Virus record (IMG/VR): IMGVR_UViG_3300025769_000525
Span: 1-30,919 of that record
Direction: 5' to 3' (one strand)
DNA from: a virus
Length of the DNA: 30,919 nucleotides
Shown: piece after piece, positions 6,701 to 20,595 of the stretch
Position numbering within the stretch: the stretch's first letter is position 1
Layout of the letters: each line of letters opens with the position of its first letter
Position numbers and translations under genes: made by a program
Notes under the pieces: generated by a model
What the model was told of the DNA's origin: nothing
Seen by the model: the letters and a program-made list of their open reading frames with translations, nothing else
The model's database searches: none

Positions 6701-7110
6701 GACAGATAGTTGATAAAAAAGGTTTTTGGATCAGTGGATGTCAAATCCGAAGTGATACCAACATAAGCACGAATGCCTGTTTGAGATCCGACGATTTCTT
6801 GTTCAGTAAAGTTCGCAACTGCTACTGTTTGAGTAGCAGGTGTAAGCAGATCAGCATAAGTTGGTTGAACTTTCACATAAGGTAAGTTCAAGTCTAGTGT
6901 CTGCTCACAACCTTCAATAATCGAACCTTGTTTGAAAAAGAAGTTTGCAAATCTTTCGATTTGTTTTTGCTGAATGCTCTGAGATTGTGTTAACTCTCGT
7001 GCTTGAACAGCATAACTAGGTCTAAAAAGAATCCTAGCAAACTTCTTATCTTCATCGTAATCATCATAATAAGGGCTGATGTTTAGGTTAATACCGCCTG
7101 GATTTGACAT
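754..7110 (-). CDS. Very large DUF4815-type baseplate/tail structural protein
   Basis: This is the largest gene in the window (2118 residues). Its N-terminus (NISPYYDDYDEDKKFARILF, then RPSYAVQARELTQSQSIQQK) matches my recollection of the DUF4815 family, found in structural proteins of marine T4-like phages. The rest is beta-rich, Ser/Thr/Asn/Gly-rich and without catalytic motifs. A C-terminal stretch, roughly residues 1650-1770, contains IYLLPGNEYCFSIKPDGN followed by KQPAAGVLFTPSN, a jelly-roll-like segment I recall from the same phage proteins. Three copies of a VTG-type beta module are visible (nt about 4605-4800, 1405-1605, 895-1120). It directly follows gp8, where T4 has gp9-gp12, and no homologues of those are visible here. 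It may therefore do the outer-baseplate and fibre-attachment work. The start has a GAAGAG ribosome site. Confidence 0.75.
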   Translation of the reverse strand: MSNPGGINLNISPYYDDYDEDKKFARILFRPSYAVQARELTQSQSIQQKQIERFANFFFKQGSIIEGCEQTLDLNLPYVKVQPTYADLLTPATQTVAVANFTEQEIVGSQTGIRAYVGITSDLTSTDPKTFFINYLSNGAIKIKISDSNFPTGNFNVGNKVEFFTASGAGSVTVAGTLVAWDVDPITSATATDNQYIWVNDLTGDFSLIPNSGTPVIRFTYSSGATQEIEYDPASLSTQVVVNGNQPLPSRVITVVDASNVVVGSPVTGTGIPAGAYITAFQTTPTHTITLSVETEVGGVADTAPITVYTSDLRESSTFNDNELLFTSNYSSRFYAISETENATQYVVNAGTANELIYNKGSKATLGDGILYIADHFIKVDSQTILLDKYSNNPSYKVGVVPVKTFIDAVDDTTVLDNAQGYNNFQAPGADRLRIDVTWTKIGYNEVSTETEFVSMLEVEDGIIKKRKELAVEGKLEEAIARRTDEESGSYTLSDPKIAIREHLNTGTNNGRYSLSEGGDSDLLLAEADPFTAYVKGYRNEIIARTGITLRKGLDVEEVEQVKTQIVLGSYLPVNELIGFWDFETNAEVQLYDTAQTVITSKTFDGDSFAATGTQIGTARIKTIEYYSGEPGLGSAVYNLYLYDINITSSTFQNVRSIVQDKTGAPDCVADVVLDSFGDAILREPRFNRLVFDLPYTNIKSIRNAAGEIESSFRFRREFTINLSGGSGTVGSDDNSETFIGNGVLSDLQKRTNYMLIPRTTVLTNSAIETAVTTVIGDATVTGGVAFLTKFAAGDFVSIDGNIYKISSITDDNNLELDETASSNFTGDIYKAFPAGLPIRTVGLGSNGERSLTASPTSIQINLQENVQLNSANFVATMDRSNAREIRKDIVRDREVIIEPTANGPGGVAHPSGEVGPYSLGHSDVFQIKAIYDSGNQANAATTSDIDVTDLYSFDNGQRDNSYESASITPKIGTLPIGNLLVVFDYFTHDTTQGVGYYSVDSYPVDDSVTNTGSTIYTTDISSYTSSVGQVFDLRSSLDFRPSKINVANQQTNPSAQTTFDTPGTGGGLHIPASNSDFDADLVFYKGRKAKLYMNNKGELGITNGSPGFPVPSEAPSVPDTITLAEITVPAYPSLPKNVIINPIHNRRYTMKDIGKLESRVENIEFYTALNLLERESRDKSITDADGIDRFKNGILADPFTGHSVADVSLADYNASINRKQKYLTSYHDSGKSVQFKINEFTSTGYTKTKGNKLFLNYSQAEFIVQPYASSSINLAQQLTYSWVGDLRIYPATDNWIDVNRNPDLDLVIDPTGLSDNWKILSDAWNSEIFPAERHWIGEATKIISYDNDSASVVRTAKTKTWDVQIENANIDSAQKSINPILERLSDASISHGFRERDFVFEATGLKDGTSFYAFLDGIDVTANCKQIKLEGSTTIDELFLLYDNDGILGTDNTKYTQLFNGSLRTSKNKIYGILRIPSGYKVGQREFKLTDDSQNRDTLATSIARIPISATGISINRGTTFINTRPSFIAFDNASYVQTVSRVASTSASYSTNNFKRFDPIAQSFYVDESTYPNGVFVTSVDLYFKTKSTADNFGVTVEIRELDNGFPTRKIIGNESSRVENDAIATSTDSTSATNFEFPSPIYLLPGNEYCFSIKPDGNTDDYEIWTASLGEIDITDSLVNLKIDKQPAAGVLFTPSNELQWSVRQNQDIKFKLNIAEFDTSTSAIAYFDNLATPLSTYSVITPVIENLNVAGTNISYALSLTDISDQTTTYIDINNLERSTYASLYKVSTAGTLKSRLTMSTTDKHLSPYIDLDRIHANIEKISIGSDLQTELTGDVTITQDTNTVTGNSTSFNTEVIAGQYIKVGQEIKQVSVVNSATELLTVTNFRTGYTNEAIYKNPEEAPIGTYSTQSRYISRRVVLNDGFEGGDLNVFLDISRPAGSDVKVYYKIINESDPDLFDFKLYEPMELVGVPTITDNTNAYTEEKYVIPSEKLTGGSQILYGTVTTNGTTAVTGTDTRFSEELRIGDIVAIGPDRITGVVETVTDNGSITLESNFTQNLNGVSIYKVLNDTVEYTTPDGRTYTGFKSFAIKVAFISSNDAVSPRVKNLRAIALA

Positions 7111-7138
7111 CTTTTTTTCTCTTCTTTATAAAATTGAA

Positions 7139-12280: not shown

Positions 12281-14128
12281 CTATCTTCTTGTCAAACTGA
12301 TGTCTTTATCGTTAGTTACAGCAACACGAATATCACCGTTACGAATATTTACAATCTGTCCCCTAAGTGGTAAAATATCTCTCGAAGCAGGATTAGCAAT
12401 AAGTTCGAGCGTAACGCCACCCGCCGCAATTGCCGTAGGTCTAAAATCGTCTAGAATAATTTGCCCACTATTGTAATTAATAGACCCTACGTTTTGTGCG
12501 ACACCGATAATTACACCTTCAGCACTGACTCGATATATTCTCATGATTCCGCCGTTTTCTTCCAAGAAACAATTATCAAAACCGCCATAAGAAAATGCGG
12601 TAGAAGTGACTTGGTTCCCCGCACCAAAAGGGTGTGTGGAAGGTCTATCAGCAGTTGTGTTTTGAATGGGATTGGAAAAATTAATAATATACTGCACTGA
12701 TGATCCTAGCTGAACACTAAAACGCTTTTTCATTCTAACGATAATATCGCTATTCAAAATAGATCTGTCAGAATAATCTATGAGTCTTACCAATTCTGAG
12801 TAGCGGAAATATCGAGAAAATTTATTTAATTTTTCCGTATTATACGTCTTAATGGTATTGAAAATAGTTTCTTTTAGGCTTGCTTCAGAAGCAATAATTT
12901 TTTCCGGGTCGAATGTGGCATTAACATCAACGCTGACATAAATAAACTCGGCATCAACAATTTCGGTTGAAACTGTCAAACTTTTTTTAGGATTGATAAC
13001 ACCATTAATTAGATTTAATTTTTCAGTTTCTGTTAGAACCTCTCCAACGGTAGGACGAATAGCAATAAAAACTTTTCCGTAAGCGGGCGGGTCGTTGTCT
13101 TCACCTCCCCACACGAGTACCGAATCGACATTGGGTTGATTCACAAGAATTGTTTGAAAATCTTCGGCAGTTACCGCTCTATTCTGTGCGGTGTTTGCTC
13201 TAGGCGCATTGAATCGTATTGTTTCAATACTTTCTTTATCTTGTCCACCAAGAGAGAACTGAGACGCTACGAAAGATGCCGCAACAATCGAAGCTCCGGA
13301 TACTTGTAAATTACTCGGATCTGACATCAAAGATAAATTTAGAATACCATTACCTGCAGCACCTTTAGAAACGACATATGTTAGTTTTATAACATTACCA
13401 TCCTCAAGCGCTTGGCTAATGATTCCATCACCAAATCTAACTTCATACTTTCCATCATCAGTTTCCTTGATGTAATACGCATAAGATTCACGATTTAGAT
13501 TCACGATTTGATCTGATCGTGTCCAACTTTGTGATGTTGCGTTTGTAGAAGAAAGTTCTGTTTTTACAACAAGCGTTGATATGTCTGATTCTGAATTGTT
13601 TAGCAGAAATTTTTGAGTCGGATTGTTTACATCATAAACATAAGTTTCGGACGTAATTACTCCTTCGGTTAGTGATATAGAATCGGCACTGTAAATACCA
13701 TTCGACGGAAAAATTGTAATAGGATCTAAATTAACAAAGTAGTATGTTACGCCATCAACAACAGAACTGAATCGTGTTCCGTAAGGAACTGTCACATTTC
13801 CAAATGCGGTACCGCTAATCGATACCGTAAGAGATCCTTGAATTTTTGCTGATGTTGTAGATCTAGGTGTATATCCAAGTGCTGCAGCTAAATTAACAAC
13901 AGAAGACCTTTTCTGAGCAGTTTCAATAAACGCTTCATTAAATGCCATATTAGTGTAAAACATATTGTAGTATGTGTTGTACGACAGTAAATCTAGCAGC
14001 GTAGACAAACCAGAAGCGTCAAAGTTATAATCTTGGAACTGCGACTGACCCTTCATATAGGCTTTTAAGTTTTGCTTGATGTCAAAAAACTCTAGCCCGT
14101 CTAGTTTTAAATTATTTTCTTCTGCCAT
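12281..14128 (-). CDS. 6: Baseplate wedge protein gp6
   Basis: This 615-residue protein matches T4 gp6 (660 residues), the dimeric wedge protein that forms the inner iris of the baseplate. The N-terminal region is diagnostic: FFDIKQNLKAYMKGQSQFQD, then LLSYNTYYNMFYTNMAFNEA and QKRSSVVNLAAALGYTPRS. These align with EIKQNLIEWLNGQNEFLDYD, LLAYNTLYIQQFGNAA and LRSSVVQAAQDNGYLPTS of T4. A middle segment (RFNAPRANTAQNRAVTAEDF) is typical of the gpJ/gp6 fold. The gene lies one nt after the gp25 stop (TAA-A-ATG) and four nt before the gp7-like start, so it is probably translated by coupling. Confidence 0.9.
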   Translation of the reverse strand: MAEENNLKLDGLEFFDIKQNLKAYMKGQSQFQDYNFDASGLSTLLDLLSYNTYYNMFYTNMAFNEAFIETAQKRSSVVNLAAALGYTPRSTTSAKIQGSLTVSISGTAFGNVTVPYGTRFSSVVDGVTYYFVNLDPITIFPSNGIYSADSISLTEGVITSETYVYDVNNPTQKFLLNNSESDISTLVVKTELSSTNATSQSWTRSDQIVNLNRESYAYYIKETDDGKYEVRFGDGIISQALEDGNVIKLTYVVSKGAAGNGILNLSLMSDPSNLQVSGASIVAASFVASQFSLGGQDKESIETIRFNAPRANTAQNRAVTAEDFQTILVNQPNVDSVLVWGGEDNDPPAYGKVFIAIRPTVGEVLTETEKLNLINGVINPKKSLTVSTEIVDAEFIYVSVDVNATFDPEKIIASEASLKETIFNTIKTYNTEKLNKFSRYFRYSELVRLIDYSDRSILNSDIIVRMKKRFSVQLGSSVQYIINFSNPIQNTTADRPSTHPFGAGNQVTSTAFSYGGFDNCFLEENGGIMRIYRVSAEGVIIGVAQNVGSINYNSGQIILDDFRPTAIAAGGVTLELIANPASRDILPLRGQIVNIRNGDIRVAVTNDKDISLTRR

Positions 14129-14129
14129 T

Positions 14130-14504
14130 TTAGACTCTGCTTATTAACGTTTCTAATGTTTGAAAAATCCCAGTATCTTTTACTTTAAACTCAATGGTAA
14201 TATCAATTCCATTCGGTACGACATTCGCTTCAATTGCTTGAACAATAGCTCTAGGCTCAAATGTTTTTATGGCATCGTGTATCTCTTCAATAATATCAAC
14301 TTCAGTGAGAGCATCAGCTTGTTTGAACAAATATCTTTTTAGATTGACCCCGTATTCAGGATCATAAGGTCTAGTTCCAATATCTGTACTCAATAAATTT
14401 CGAAGAGAAAGTTTTACTGCTCGCTCATTCGCCACTGGAGTTACGTCTCCAGTGTTAGGGTTTGCAACAAAGCTTAGCGCTATATCTGAATATACTGTAG
14501 CCAT
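14130..14504 (-). CDS. 25: Baseplate wedge protein gp25
   Basis: This 124-residue protein belongs to the gp25/gpW-like wedge family (T4 gp25 is 132 residues). It sits in the baseplate centre next to gp6 and connects to the first sheath ring. The family signature is clear: NERAVKLSLRNLLSTDIGTR, then RPYDPEYGVNLKRYLF and DIIEEIHDAIKTFEPRAIV. Gene order 25-6-7-8 keeps the wedge genes together. The ATG overlaps the stop of the preceding Hc1-like gene by one base (TAATG), suggesting reinitiation. Confidence 0.92.
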   Translation of the reverse strand: MATVYSDIALSFVANPNTGDVTPVANERAVKLSLRNLLSTDIGTRPYDPEYGVNLKRYLFKQADALTEVDIIEEIHDAIKTFEPRAIVQAIEANVVPNGIDITIEFKVKDTGIFQTLETLISRV

Positions 14505-14674
14505 TATTGTTTAGCTTCTTGGATCTCTTTTCTTAGTTCTTTAGTTACTTTAGCGATTTCTGATAAAGCTTTTCTTGCCCTTGTCGCCGATACTTTAACG
14601 CCTTTAGTGAGGAACTTTTCCCGTTCTTGCAAATAAGTTTCGAACAAATTTACTAAAATTTCGTGATTGTCCAT
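14504..14674 (-). CDS. Small Hc1/histone H1-like protein
   Basis: This 56-residue gene reads MDNHEILVNLFETYLQEREK, then FLTKGVKVSATRARKALSEI, AKVTKELRKEIQEAKQ and stop. The Lys/Arg-rich middle, RARKALSEIAKVTKELRKE, resembles the N-terminal domain of the chlamydial Hc1 histone-like family, and I recall small Hc1-like proteins in marine T4-like phages. DNA binding is inferred. The whole protein looks helical with an amphipathic coil, so a structural or adaptor role is also possible. Translation is well supported by AAGGA six bases before ATG, a late promoter at 14758-14765 and a TAATG overlap with gp25. It is the first gene after that promoter, inside the baseplate operon. Confidence 0.8.
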   Translation of the reverse strand: MDNHEILVNLFETYLQEREKFLTKGVKVSATRARKALSEIAKVTKELRKEIQEAKQ

Positions 14675-14703: not shown

Positions 14704-14732
14704 CTTGACATTTGCTTGACAATGTGTATAAT
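14704..14732 (+). promoter_or_regulatory. Consensus sigma70-type promoter, antisense to the baseplate operon
   Basis: On the plus strand TTGACA (14705-14710) is followed after 16 nt by TATAAT (14727-14732). Both boxes match the bacterial housekeeping consensus exactly. A second CTTGACA lies 11 nt after the first (14715-14721), one helical turn away. Transcription would start near 14739 and run antisense into the 3' end of the gp5-like gene. I see no plausible plus-strand gene downstream, so the product would be an antisense or regulatory RNA if the promoter is used. Confidence 0.55.
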
Positions 14733-14757
14733 TAACTGTGTAGCCTTTTCATTATTC

Positions 14758-14765
14758 TATTTATA
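14758..14765 (-). promoter_or_regulatory. T4-type late promoter upstream of the Hc1-like gene
   Basis: This is an exact TATAAATA on the minus strand, eight nt beyond the gp5-like stop. A start near 14752 would give a leader of about 78 nt before the Hc1-like ATG, the longest of the late leaders here. The leader spans the opposing sigma70-like promoter at 14704-14732. Confidence 0.72.
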
Positions 14766-14772
14766 ACTTTTT

Positions 14773-16077
14773 TTACGGAGCTAGTTCATTTTCTATTGCG
14801 GTGACACGATCATTCAAATCTTGAAGTGAAGCCAAGATATCTCTTAACGTTTCTAGCAATGGATAATTTATAGATTCACTGTCCACAGTTCCTGTGACCG
14901 CAATATCACTCCCAGACGATATCAGTACTGCAGTATTTCCGATTACGCTAGTATTTACATTAGAAGTTATTGATGAGCTTCCATCCGGTGATGCTATTGT
15001 TGTGTTATTTTCGAGAGATGAAACTACCACCGATCCTTTCGAAGTAAACGTTGATGTACCACCTGATGTAAATACGAGATTCTGTGTTATCGTGCCATAG
15101 TAGTTTTTAGTATCAACTAAGTAATCACCTGCATTCTCATTGGTAGAACTATTATTATATAATGTTGATAATAAAATATTACCACCACCTGTGGTTTTTA
15201 TTCCAATCGGACCTTCGTTATTGGCTATTGAAATAGATCCTTTGTCGTTTGTAATCGTGATTTTAGAGGTTTCTTTCCCTCCAACTAATGCTAAATTTCC
15301 GGAAGTGTTAATAAGCTGAATACTTCCCTTGTCTGTAGTTGTGATAATATTACCAAACTTAGACGTTAGTGTGATGTGCCCGCCTTCCGTTGTGTTATCT
15401 GCATTGACTTTTCCTTGCGCAACAAAATTGATTTGTCCATTGCCGGGAATGTTCATGGTCATTGAACCGTCGTTGACATCACTTTTTGCAAAAACTGTTT
15501 TGATTCCATTTTCCAAAATCAGATAATCAGAAATGACTTCTGGAACTTCAGGGTATACTGAGTCTGAGTACATATCGAGTCGAATGTACTTATTTGGAAT
15601 AGACAATTCAACTCTAGGTTGTTGAGTAATTCCACCTTCAGGATCTAAAACAAATCGGACAAGATCTTTTATGTTTTGTGTATAGCTATTTCTATTTGTA
15701 TCAGATCGAATGTTTTCATTGTAGTATATTGCTGGATAACTAACGTCGCTTGGGGCAGACCATTCAAATCCCGGCTCACCTAAATTTGATAATGTGTTGC
15801 CAGGAAGAACTCCAAAGACTAAAGGTTCTTGTGAATCTCGTCCGTCTAAGAAAAATCCTACAACCCAATCTCCAATTTCCGGTCGCCCGTAAGCACCCAT
15901 GACATTCGGAGAATGGATGCAGACAGCCCACGGAAGATCTTTCGTTGGAATTTCGCCGGTGTGTTTAGGTGGATGGTAACCGAATATTCTAACTTGAACA
16001 CGCCCCAAAAGATATGGGTCGTAGTTATCTTCGACAACACCCATCCACCAAACAAAATCGTCTCTTCCTAAAAACAT
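14773..16077 (-). CDS. 5: gp5-like central spike protein lacking the lysozyme domain
   Basis: The N-terminal OB-fold (residues 1-95) is clear: WWMGVVEDNYDPYLLGRVQV, then FGYHPPKHTGEIPTKDLPWA and GDWVVGFFLDGRDSQEPLVF. It aligns with WFVGVVEDRMDPLKLGRVRV and LPWM of T4 gp5. T4 gp5 (575 residues) then has a T4-lysozyme-like domain and a triple-stranded beta-helix. This protein is 434 residues and goes from a short linker straight to glycine-punctuated beta-helix repeats (about 195-390; for example GNIITTTDKGSIQLINTSGN). No lysozyme motif is visible. It ends in a likely coiled coil (LLETLRDILASLQDLNDRVT). The trimer would form the needle under the gp27-like hub. Its ATG overlaps the hub stop (TAATG), with GGGGGAG upstream. 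Confidence 0.85.
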   Translation of the reverse strand: MFLGRDDFVWWMGVVEDNYDPYLLGRVQVRIFGYHPPKHTGEIPTKDLPWAVCIHSPNVMGAYGRPEIGDWVVGFFLDGRDSQEPLVFGVLPGNTLSNLGEPGFEWSAPSDVSYPAIYYNENIRSDTNRNSYTQNIKDLVRFVLDPEGGITQQPRVELSIPNKYIRLDMYSDSVYPEVPEVISDYLILENGIKTVFAKSDVNDGSMTMNIPGNGQINFVAQGKVNADNTTEGGHITLTSKFGNIITTTDKGSIQLINTSGNLALVGGKETSKITITNDKGSISIANNEGPIGIKTTGGGNILLSTLYNNSSTNENAGDYLVDTKNYYGTITQNLVFTSGGTSTFTSKGSVVVSSLENNTTIASPDGSSSITSNVNTSVIGNTAVLISSGSDIAVTGTVDSESINYPLLETLRDILASLQDLNDRVTAIENELAP

Positions 16078-20126: not shown

Positions 20127-20134
20127 TATTTATA
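20127..20134 (-). promoter_or_regulatory. T4-type late promoter upstream of gp48
   Basis: This is an exact TATAAATA on the minus strand in the divergent gap between gp48 and gp4. A start near 20121 gives a leader of about 27 nt that contains the AGGA ribosome site of gp48. It would drive the whole baseplate operon. Confidence 0.75.
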
Positions 20135-20587: not shown

Positions 20588-20595
20588 TATAAATA
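20588..20595 (+). promoter_or_regulatory. T4-type late promoter at the 20601 gene start
   Basis: An exact TATAAATA lies in the 17-nt gap after gp4. With the usual spacing the transcript would begin at about 20600-20602, at or next to the ATG (20601). The gene has no Shine-Dalgarno sequence, so this may produce a leaderless mRNA, or supply transcript for downstream genes only. Confidence 0.6.

Follow-up and report, generated by a model that had tools for sequence, protein, structure and literature searches.

A conserved sigma70-type promoter antisense to late baseplate genes of a T4-like phage and its possible role in transcriptional interference

Why would a T4-like phage carry a consensus host promoter that points the wrong way inside its cluster of baseplate genes? 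The question is raised by one gene junction in the window, the 30,919-base stretch of DNA analysed here, which represents part of the genome of a T4-like phage and gave no match to phage records by megablast. The minus strand around the junction encodes, in this order, a gp48/54-like tube cap protein, gp53, a PHROG 350 tail protein, a gp5-like protein, a histone-H1-like protein, gp25, gp6 and more baseplate proteins. The gp5-like baseplate hub gene (14773–16077, minus strand; PHROG 430, E 6.7e-29; N-terminal OB part) is separated by a 98-nucleotide gap from a late unit that opens with the 56-amino-acid H1-like gene (14507–14674, minus strand), a named relative of which is annotated as histone H1 in S-SRM01. 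The unit continues with a gp25-like wedge gene (14130–14504, minus strand; PHROG 261, E 1.7e-32) and the wedge gene gp6 (12281–14128, minus strand; PHROG 219, E 5.9e-158). Matches of the gp5-like protein to the hub/lysozyme family are restricted to its N-terminal 130 residues, and no lysozyme part was matched. A T4-type late promoter box of this unit, TATAAATA, occupies 14758–14765 of the minus strand, exactly where the original prediction had placed it. Further copies of this box lie on the minus strand at 20127 and 8452 and on the plus strand at 20588. No intrinsic terminator was found between gp5 and the next unit.

The antisense element occupies the gp5/H1-like gap and reads, on the plus strand, TTGACA (the −35 hexamer, 14705–14710), TTTGC, a second TTGACA (14716–14721, 11 nucleotides after the first and within the spacer), ATGTG, TATAAT (the −10 hexamer, 14727–14732), TAACT and GTGTAGCC (14738–14745), the last of these at the predicted start site. 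Its −35 hexamer is situated 68 nucleotides beyond the gp5 stop codon, and the promoter points back into gp5. The two hexamers match the sigma70 consensus at 12 of 12 positions with a 16-nucleotide spacer. The original prediction had described this pair correctly apart from a start coordinate that was one base too early, and had not mentioned the second TTGACA or the start-site motif. Its statement that all flanking genes run opposite to the promoter also holds, and extends to the 56-amino-acid gene, which it had not included. No sense sigma70 site with at least 10 of 12 matches is present near the element. Although it is the sole exact TTGACA/TATAAT pair in the window (both strands, spacers of 15–19), dinucleotide shuffles of the window contain 0.14 exact matches on average and at least one in 13% of cases. 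The exact match alone is thus not beyond chance, and the case depends on comparison with relatives. A separate plus-strand site at 7104–7132, TTGACA-N17-TATAAA, is antisense at another gene junction; it is T-rich and probably due to chance.

A search of viral contigs with the H1-like protein returned 17 clear relatives (84–100% identity), which collapse into seven distinct upstream sequences, or haplotypes, including that of the window. Four sequences had been retrieved with the motif itself (L049, L084, L101 and L136), and conservation was recomputed without them. In all seven of these haplotypes, retrieved via protein similarity, the −35 hexamer, the GTGTAGC of the start motif and the late box are 100% identical, against an average of 62% for the other intergenic columns. 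The core of the promoter (−35, −10 and start motif together) is better conserved than the rest of the nearby intergenic DNA (permutation p = 0.002). The −10 hexamer reads TATAAT, TACACT or TATAAG in these haplotypes at a spacing of 16 or 17, and its columns taken by themselves give a poor alignment, as the box shifts by one base. Among relatives at large it takes the forms TATAAT, TATACT, TACACT, TATATT or TATAAG at a spacing of 16–18, a distance typical of sigma70-type early promoters. Across the window's clade and its closest relatives, GTGTAGC keeps a constant distance of 26–27 nucleotides from the −35 even as the −10 shifts. On the 3′ side of the start motif, the late box is the only conserved sequence in the seven haplotypes.

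A second protein search widened the comparison to 391 relatives, the best 80 of which represent 43 distinct upstream regions; gp5 is found upstream and gp25 downstream at 74 of these 80 loci. An antisense site with at least 10 of 12 matches occurs in 40 of the 43 regions (4.4% in shuffles), a sense-strand site of the same quality in one, and a second TTGAC 11–13 nucleotides downstream in 34. One outcome that the original prediction had named as speaking against it, namely that close relatives have lost the boxes, was looked for, and the promoter proved to be kept, both in the unbiased haplotypes and in the second clade. The core of that prediction, a sigma70-type promoter directed antisense into the baseplate cluster, is upheld by boxes conserved in two clades, with the reservation that the −10 is the weaker TATAAG in two haplotypes. 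As judged from these sequence comparisons, the antisense promoter within the tail-gene cluster is real and strongly conserved.

None of the 43 second-clade regions has a late box beside the element, the box being confined to the window's clade. The proposal that two promoters face each other is therefore correct for the window's clade but not as a general arrangement, and the conserved function must be something other than opposition to that late promoter; the antisense promoter is older, or kept more widely, than its pairing with the late promoter. An association of the element with the H1 gene itself was rejected, as the element is missing beside H1-like genes at other loci (AG-345 records, S-SRM01). 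One alternative is that the site is a chance match, as the shuffles would allow, or the relic promoter of a former antisense gene island like that of Pelagibacter phage Mosig, where antisense genes do stand between gp5 and gp25. Such an origin is hard to square with a −35 and start motif that are invariant across two clades with no gene left to drive, and we regard it as very improbable.

The product of the promoter was examined as a source of function. The antisense RNA would extend over the 3′ part of gp5, and its overlap with the next unit's leader would be limited to the first few nucleotides of that leader. A coding function was rejected: a 68-amino-acid ORF on the plus strand is lost in relatives that are 89% identical (L004 and L005), and no plus-strand ORF is kept in them. 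A terminator at 15181–15195 was likewise rejected because it is not kept in relatives, as was a structured RNA in the H1-like mRNA leader, for which RNAalifold gave zero pairs on 22 sequences; the site of the element has no Rfam match. The invariance of GTGTAGC at the start site, and its occurrence at unrelated loci, could nevertheless mean that the product matters, as a small antisense RNA with a fixed 5′ end, GUGUAGCC, that pairs with phage or host RNA. We consider this improbable, given that the late box alone is conserved downstream of the start motif, that no terminator is kept, that the first 60 nucleotides of the RNA are predicted to be nearly unfolded, and that an identical 5′ end also begins ordinary mRNAs. 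With no conserved ORF, terminator or RNA structure to point to a product, transcription itself would be the simplest function.

The element belongs to a class of composite promoters with the signature TTGACA, often a second TTGACA 11–13 nucleotides on, TATAAT and then (G/A)TGTNCC. We scanned for TTGACA, TATNNT and TGTAGCC, used the reversed motif as a control and collapsed the matches into families (73 and 74, respectively). The gap between the −10 and TGTAGCC is 5–6 nucleotides in 42 of the 73 families compared with 9 of the 74 control families, in which the distribution is flat, and a second TTGAC follows the first by 11–13 nucleotides in 10 of 73 compared with 0 of 74. The TGTAGC form is absent from the five isolates tested. 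The class occurs at about two copies per large phage contig (97–176 kb), a frequency that led us to reject it as a generic early promoter of the phage; a signature of the genomes of a marine host group was also rejected, since the strict pattern has 54 matches in 84,980 genomes, mostly Clostridia. Four contigs (G001, G002, G003 and G009) have two class copies each, and as they were picked for carrying the motif, their copy number is informative and its presence is not. In all four, one copy is antisense right before gene 55, which encodes the late sigma factor; the second copy in G001 and G009 serves as a sense promoter for a pair of genes, one of which encodes an RNA ligase. More generally, 21 of 28 and 35 of 41 sites with at least 11 of 12 matches in two large contigs lie before or within genes on the same strand, and just 3 and 2 are intergenic and antisense.

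The low copy number, together with a −35-to-GTGTAGC distance that is held while the −10 slides, would also fit the possibility that the conserved DNA is mainly the site of a phage regulator with a small regulon, composed of the TTGACA repeats and GTGTAGCC, with the promoter activated or repressed in the style of middle promoters. Cyanomyoviruses lack MotA (PMC2984593), which would suit such an arrangement, but no candidate regulator was found and the −35/−10 geometry is that of sigma70 alone, so that a regulator site as the main explanation appears unlikely to us.

Gene 55 provides a second location at which antisense placement can be assessed. Antisense sites with at least 11 of 12 matches are present within 200 nucleotides of it in 31 of 80 protein-retrieved loci (0.75% in shuffles), counts that lean upward because the query proteins were taken from element-bearing contigs. 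A panel of isolates chosen via baseplate similarity is independent of this bias, and six of its eight Kyanoviridae have an antisense sigma70 site before gene 55, with 12 of 12 matches in Syn33, HTVC008M and Mosig and 11 of 12 in P-SSM2, Syn1 and S-PM2. The site is absent in the Kyanoviridae isolates Melnitz and BUCT-ZZ01 and in the Straboviridae T4, JSE, nt-1 and Aeromonas phage 31. All six site-bearing isolates also have a sense sigma70 site beside the antisense one. At six gene 55 loci of cyanophages and pelagiphages (L459, L460, L461, L463, L464 and L465), the two are back to back or overlapping, and overlapping two-way sites occur in several isolates, which makes them resemble bidirectional bacterial promoters (PMC12825309). 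The window site differs in having no sense sigma70 partner; in its clade, the sense promoter is the facing late box. In contig G002, the ten exact consensus promoters all point the other way from the gene 55 element (G002:62943, L342:4944).

The main rival to a role in gene expression, and the one with the best precedent, is a replication-origin promoter of the T4 oriE type, in which early RNA made by the host polymerase, complementary to the gene 5 transcript, would form an R-loop in an A+T-rich downstream stretch and prime the leading strand. In the T4 record, gene 5 carries an oriE annotation with the remark "primer RNA is complement of gene 5 transcript". T4 also has an antisense TTGATG-N17-TATAAT 309 nucleotides before the gene 5 stop codon. 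The window promoter is similar in sequence and place, being antisense to gene 5 at its 3′ end within a late baseplate cluster, with a repeated TTGACA and A/T-rich DNA after it, and about two elements per large contig would suit an origin; the repEA/repEB promoter of T4 is early and factor-independent. In contrast to T4, the window promoter lies just past the gp5 stop codon and not inside the gene, keeps no antisense ORF akin to repEA/repEB, and has a repeat of only two TTGACA, 11 nucleotides apart, within the promoter itself, with no larger cluster in the intergenic sequence. Furthermore, no turn in GC skew is seen at the elements in two large contigs, in other phages the second class copy serves as the promoter of ordinary early genes, and the A/T-rich stretch is not kept in the second clade, as judged by eye. 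An origin function is for these reasons doubtful, and if the gp5 copy does prime replication, the oriE arrangement of T4 would extend to a distant family. An antisense site with an extended −10 is also present inside gene 5 of T4, HTVC008M and Mosig, 309–328 nucleotides before the stop codon (L450:2878, L145:3997 and, at about 327 nucleotides, L144). The site in T4 coincides with the annotated oriE, and these internal sites may partly follow from a shared Tyr-Tyr-Asn coding stretch.

Considering (i) the consensus boxes, (ii) their conservation, (iii) the composite signature shared with other loci, (iv) the sense use of that signature elsewhere and (v) the absence of a conserved product, the most likely action of the antisense promoter is transcriptional interference. 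The full reading, to which we give about even credence, is that selection keeps a host-sigma70 promoter where the gp5 unit of this T4-like, Kyanoviridae-like phage adjoins the H1-like/gp25/gp6 unit, and that this promoter acts by interference. The host holoenzyme would fire the promoter early, before the phage late sigma factor gp55 is made, and the RNA would start at about 14739 and extend to the right across the 3′ end of gp5. Such head-on transcription would keep polymerases from reading out of gp5 into the following unit; in the clade of the window it would also cover the late promoter, whose predicted start is within about 15 bp. The block would be released once transcription by gp55 replaces that by sigma70, which is shut down. 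As the late promoter coexists with the antisense promoter in the window's clade, any interference would have to be incomplete or temporary.

The similar antisense site before gene 55 would restrain the late sigma factor in the same manner, and the antisense promoters suggest that early wrong-way transcription is built into the order of gene expression in T4-like phages. More tentatively, the composite promoters (TTGACA-TTGACA-TATAAT-GTGTNCC, about two per phage) could form a family-wide device, placed antisense at the entrances of gene 55 and the gp25/gp6 unit, in which transcription by host sigma keeps late functions blocked until its displacement, perhaps with adjustment by a phage factor that reads the start motif. 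Three sequence features sit uneasily with interference: the invariance of seven nucleotides at the start site exceeds the need of a plain interference promoter, two haplotypes have the weaker −10, and six phages lack the gene 55 site. The invariant start motif, which neither interference nor an oriE-type origin explains, may point to a phage factor or to a function of the RNA 5′ end. The timing of genes in Kyanoviridae and similar phages without MotA has been described as unclear (PMC2984593), and a conserved antisense promoter at both the late sigma gene and a late structural unit would offer a concrete, testable device for it.

Antisense transcription has a precedent in T4-like marine phages in CfrI of cyanophage S-PM2, a detected antisense RNA of ~225 nucleotides over psbA and a homing-endonuclease gene (PMC2984593). 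The window element, known from its promoter sequence, concerns other genes: it faces gp5 and has no conserved terminator that would define a discrete RNA. It shares the consensus −35 and −10 with the sigma70-type early promoters of T4-like marine phages, among which the composite signature drives early operons in sense, and differs from them in being antisense to all its neighbours and in its doubled TTGACA and fixed start motif. Many contigs (L044, L059, L060, L064, L071, L074, L087, L119 and L121) carry a repeated promoter family of another kind, TTGACA...TATATAATAGA(C/T)TATGTAGCCCACCGGGTACATATA, which has an inverted repeat where transcription is predicted to start. In L048, L057, L085 and L112, palindromes of the form GGCTACA...TGTAGCC flank the −10 and are operator-like in look.
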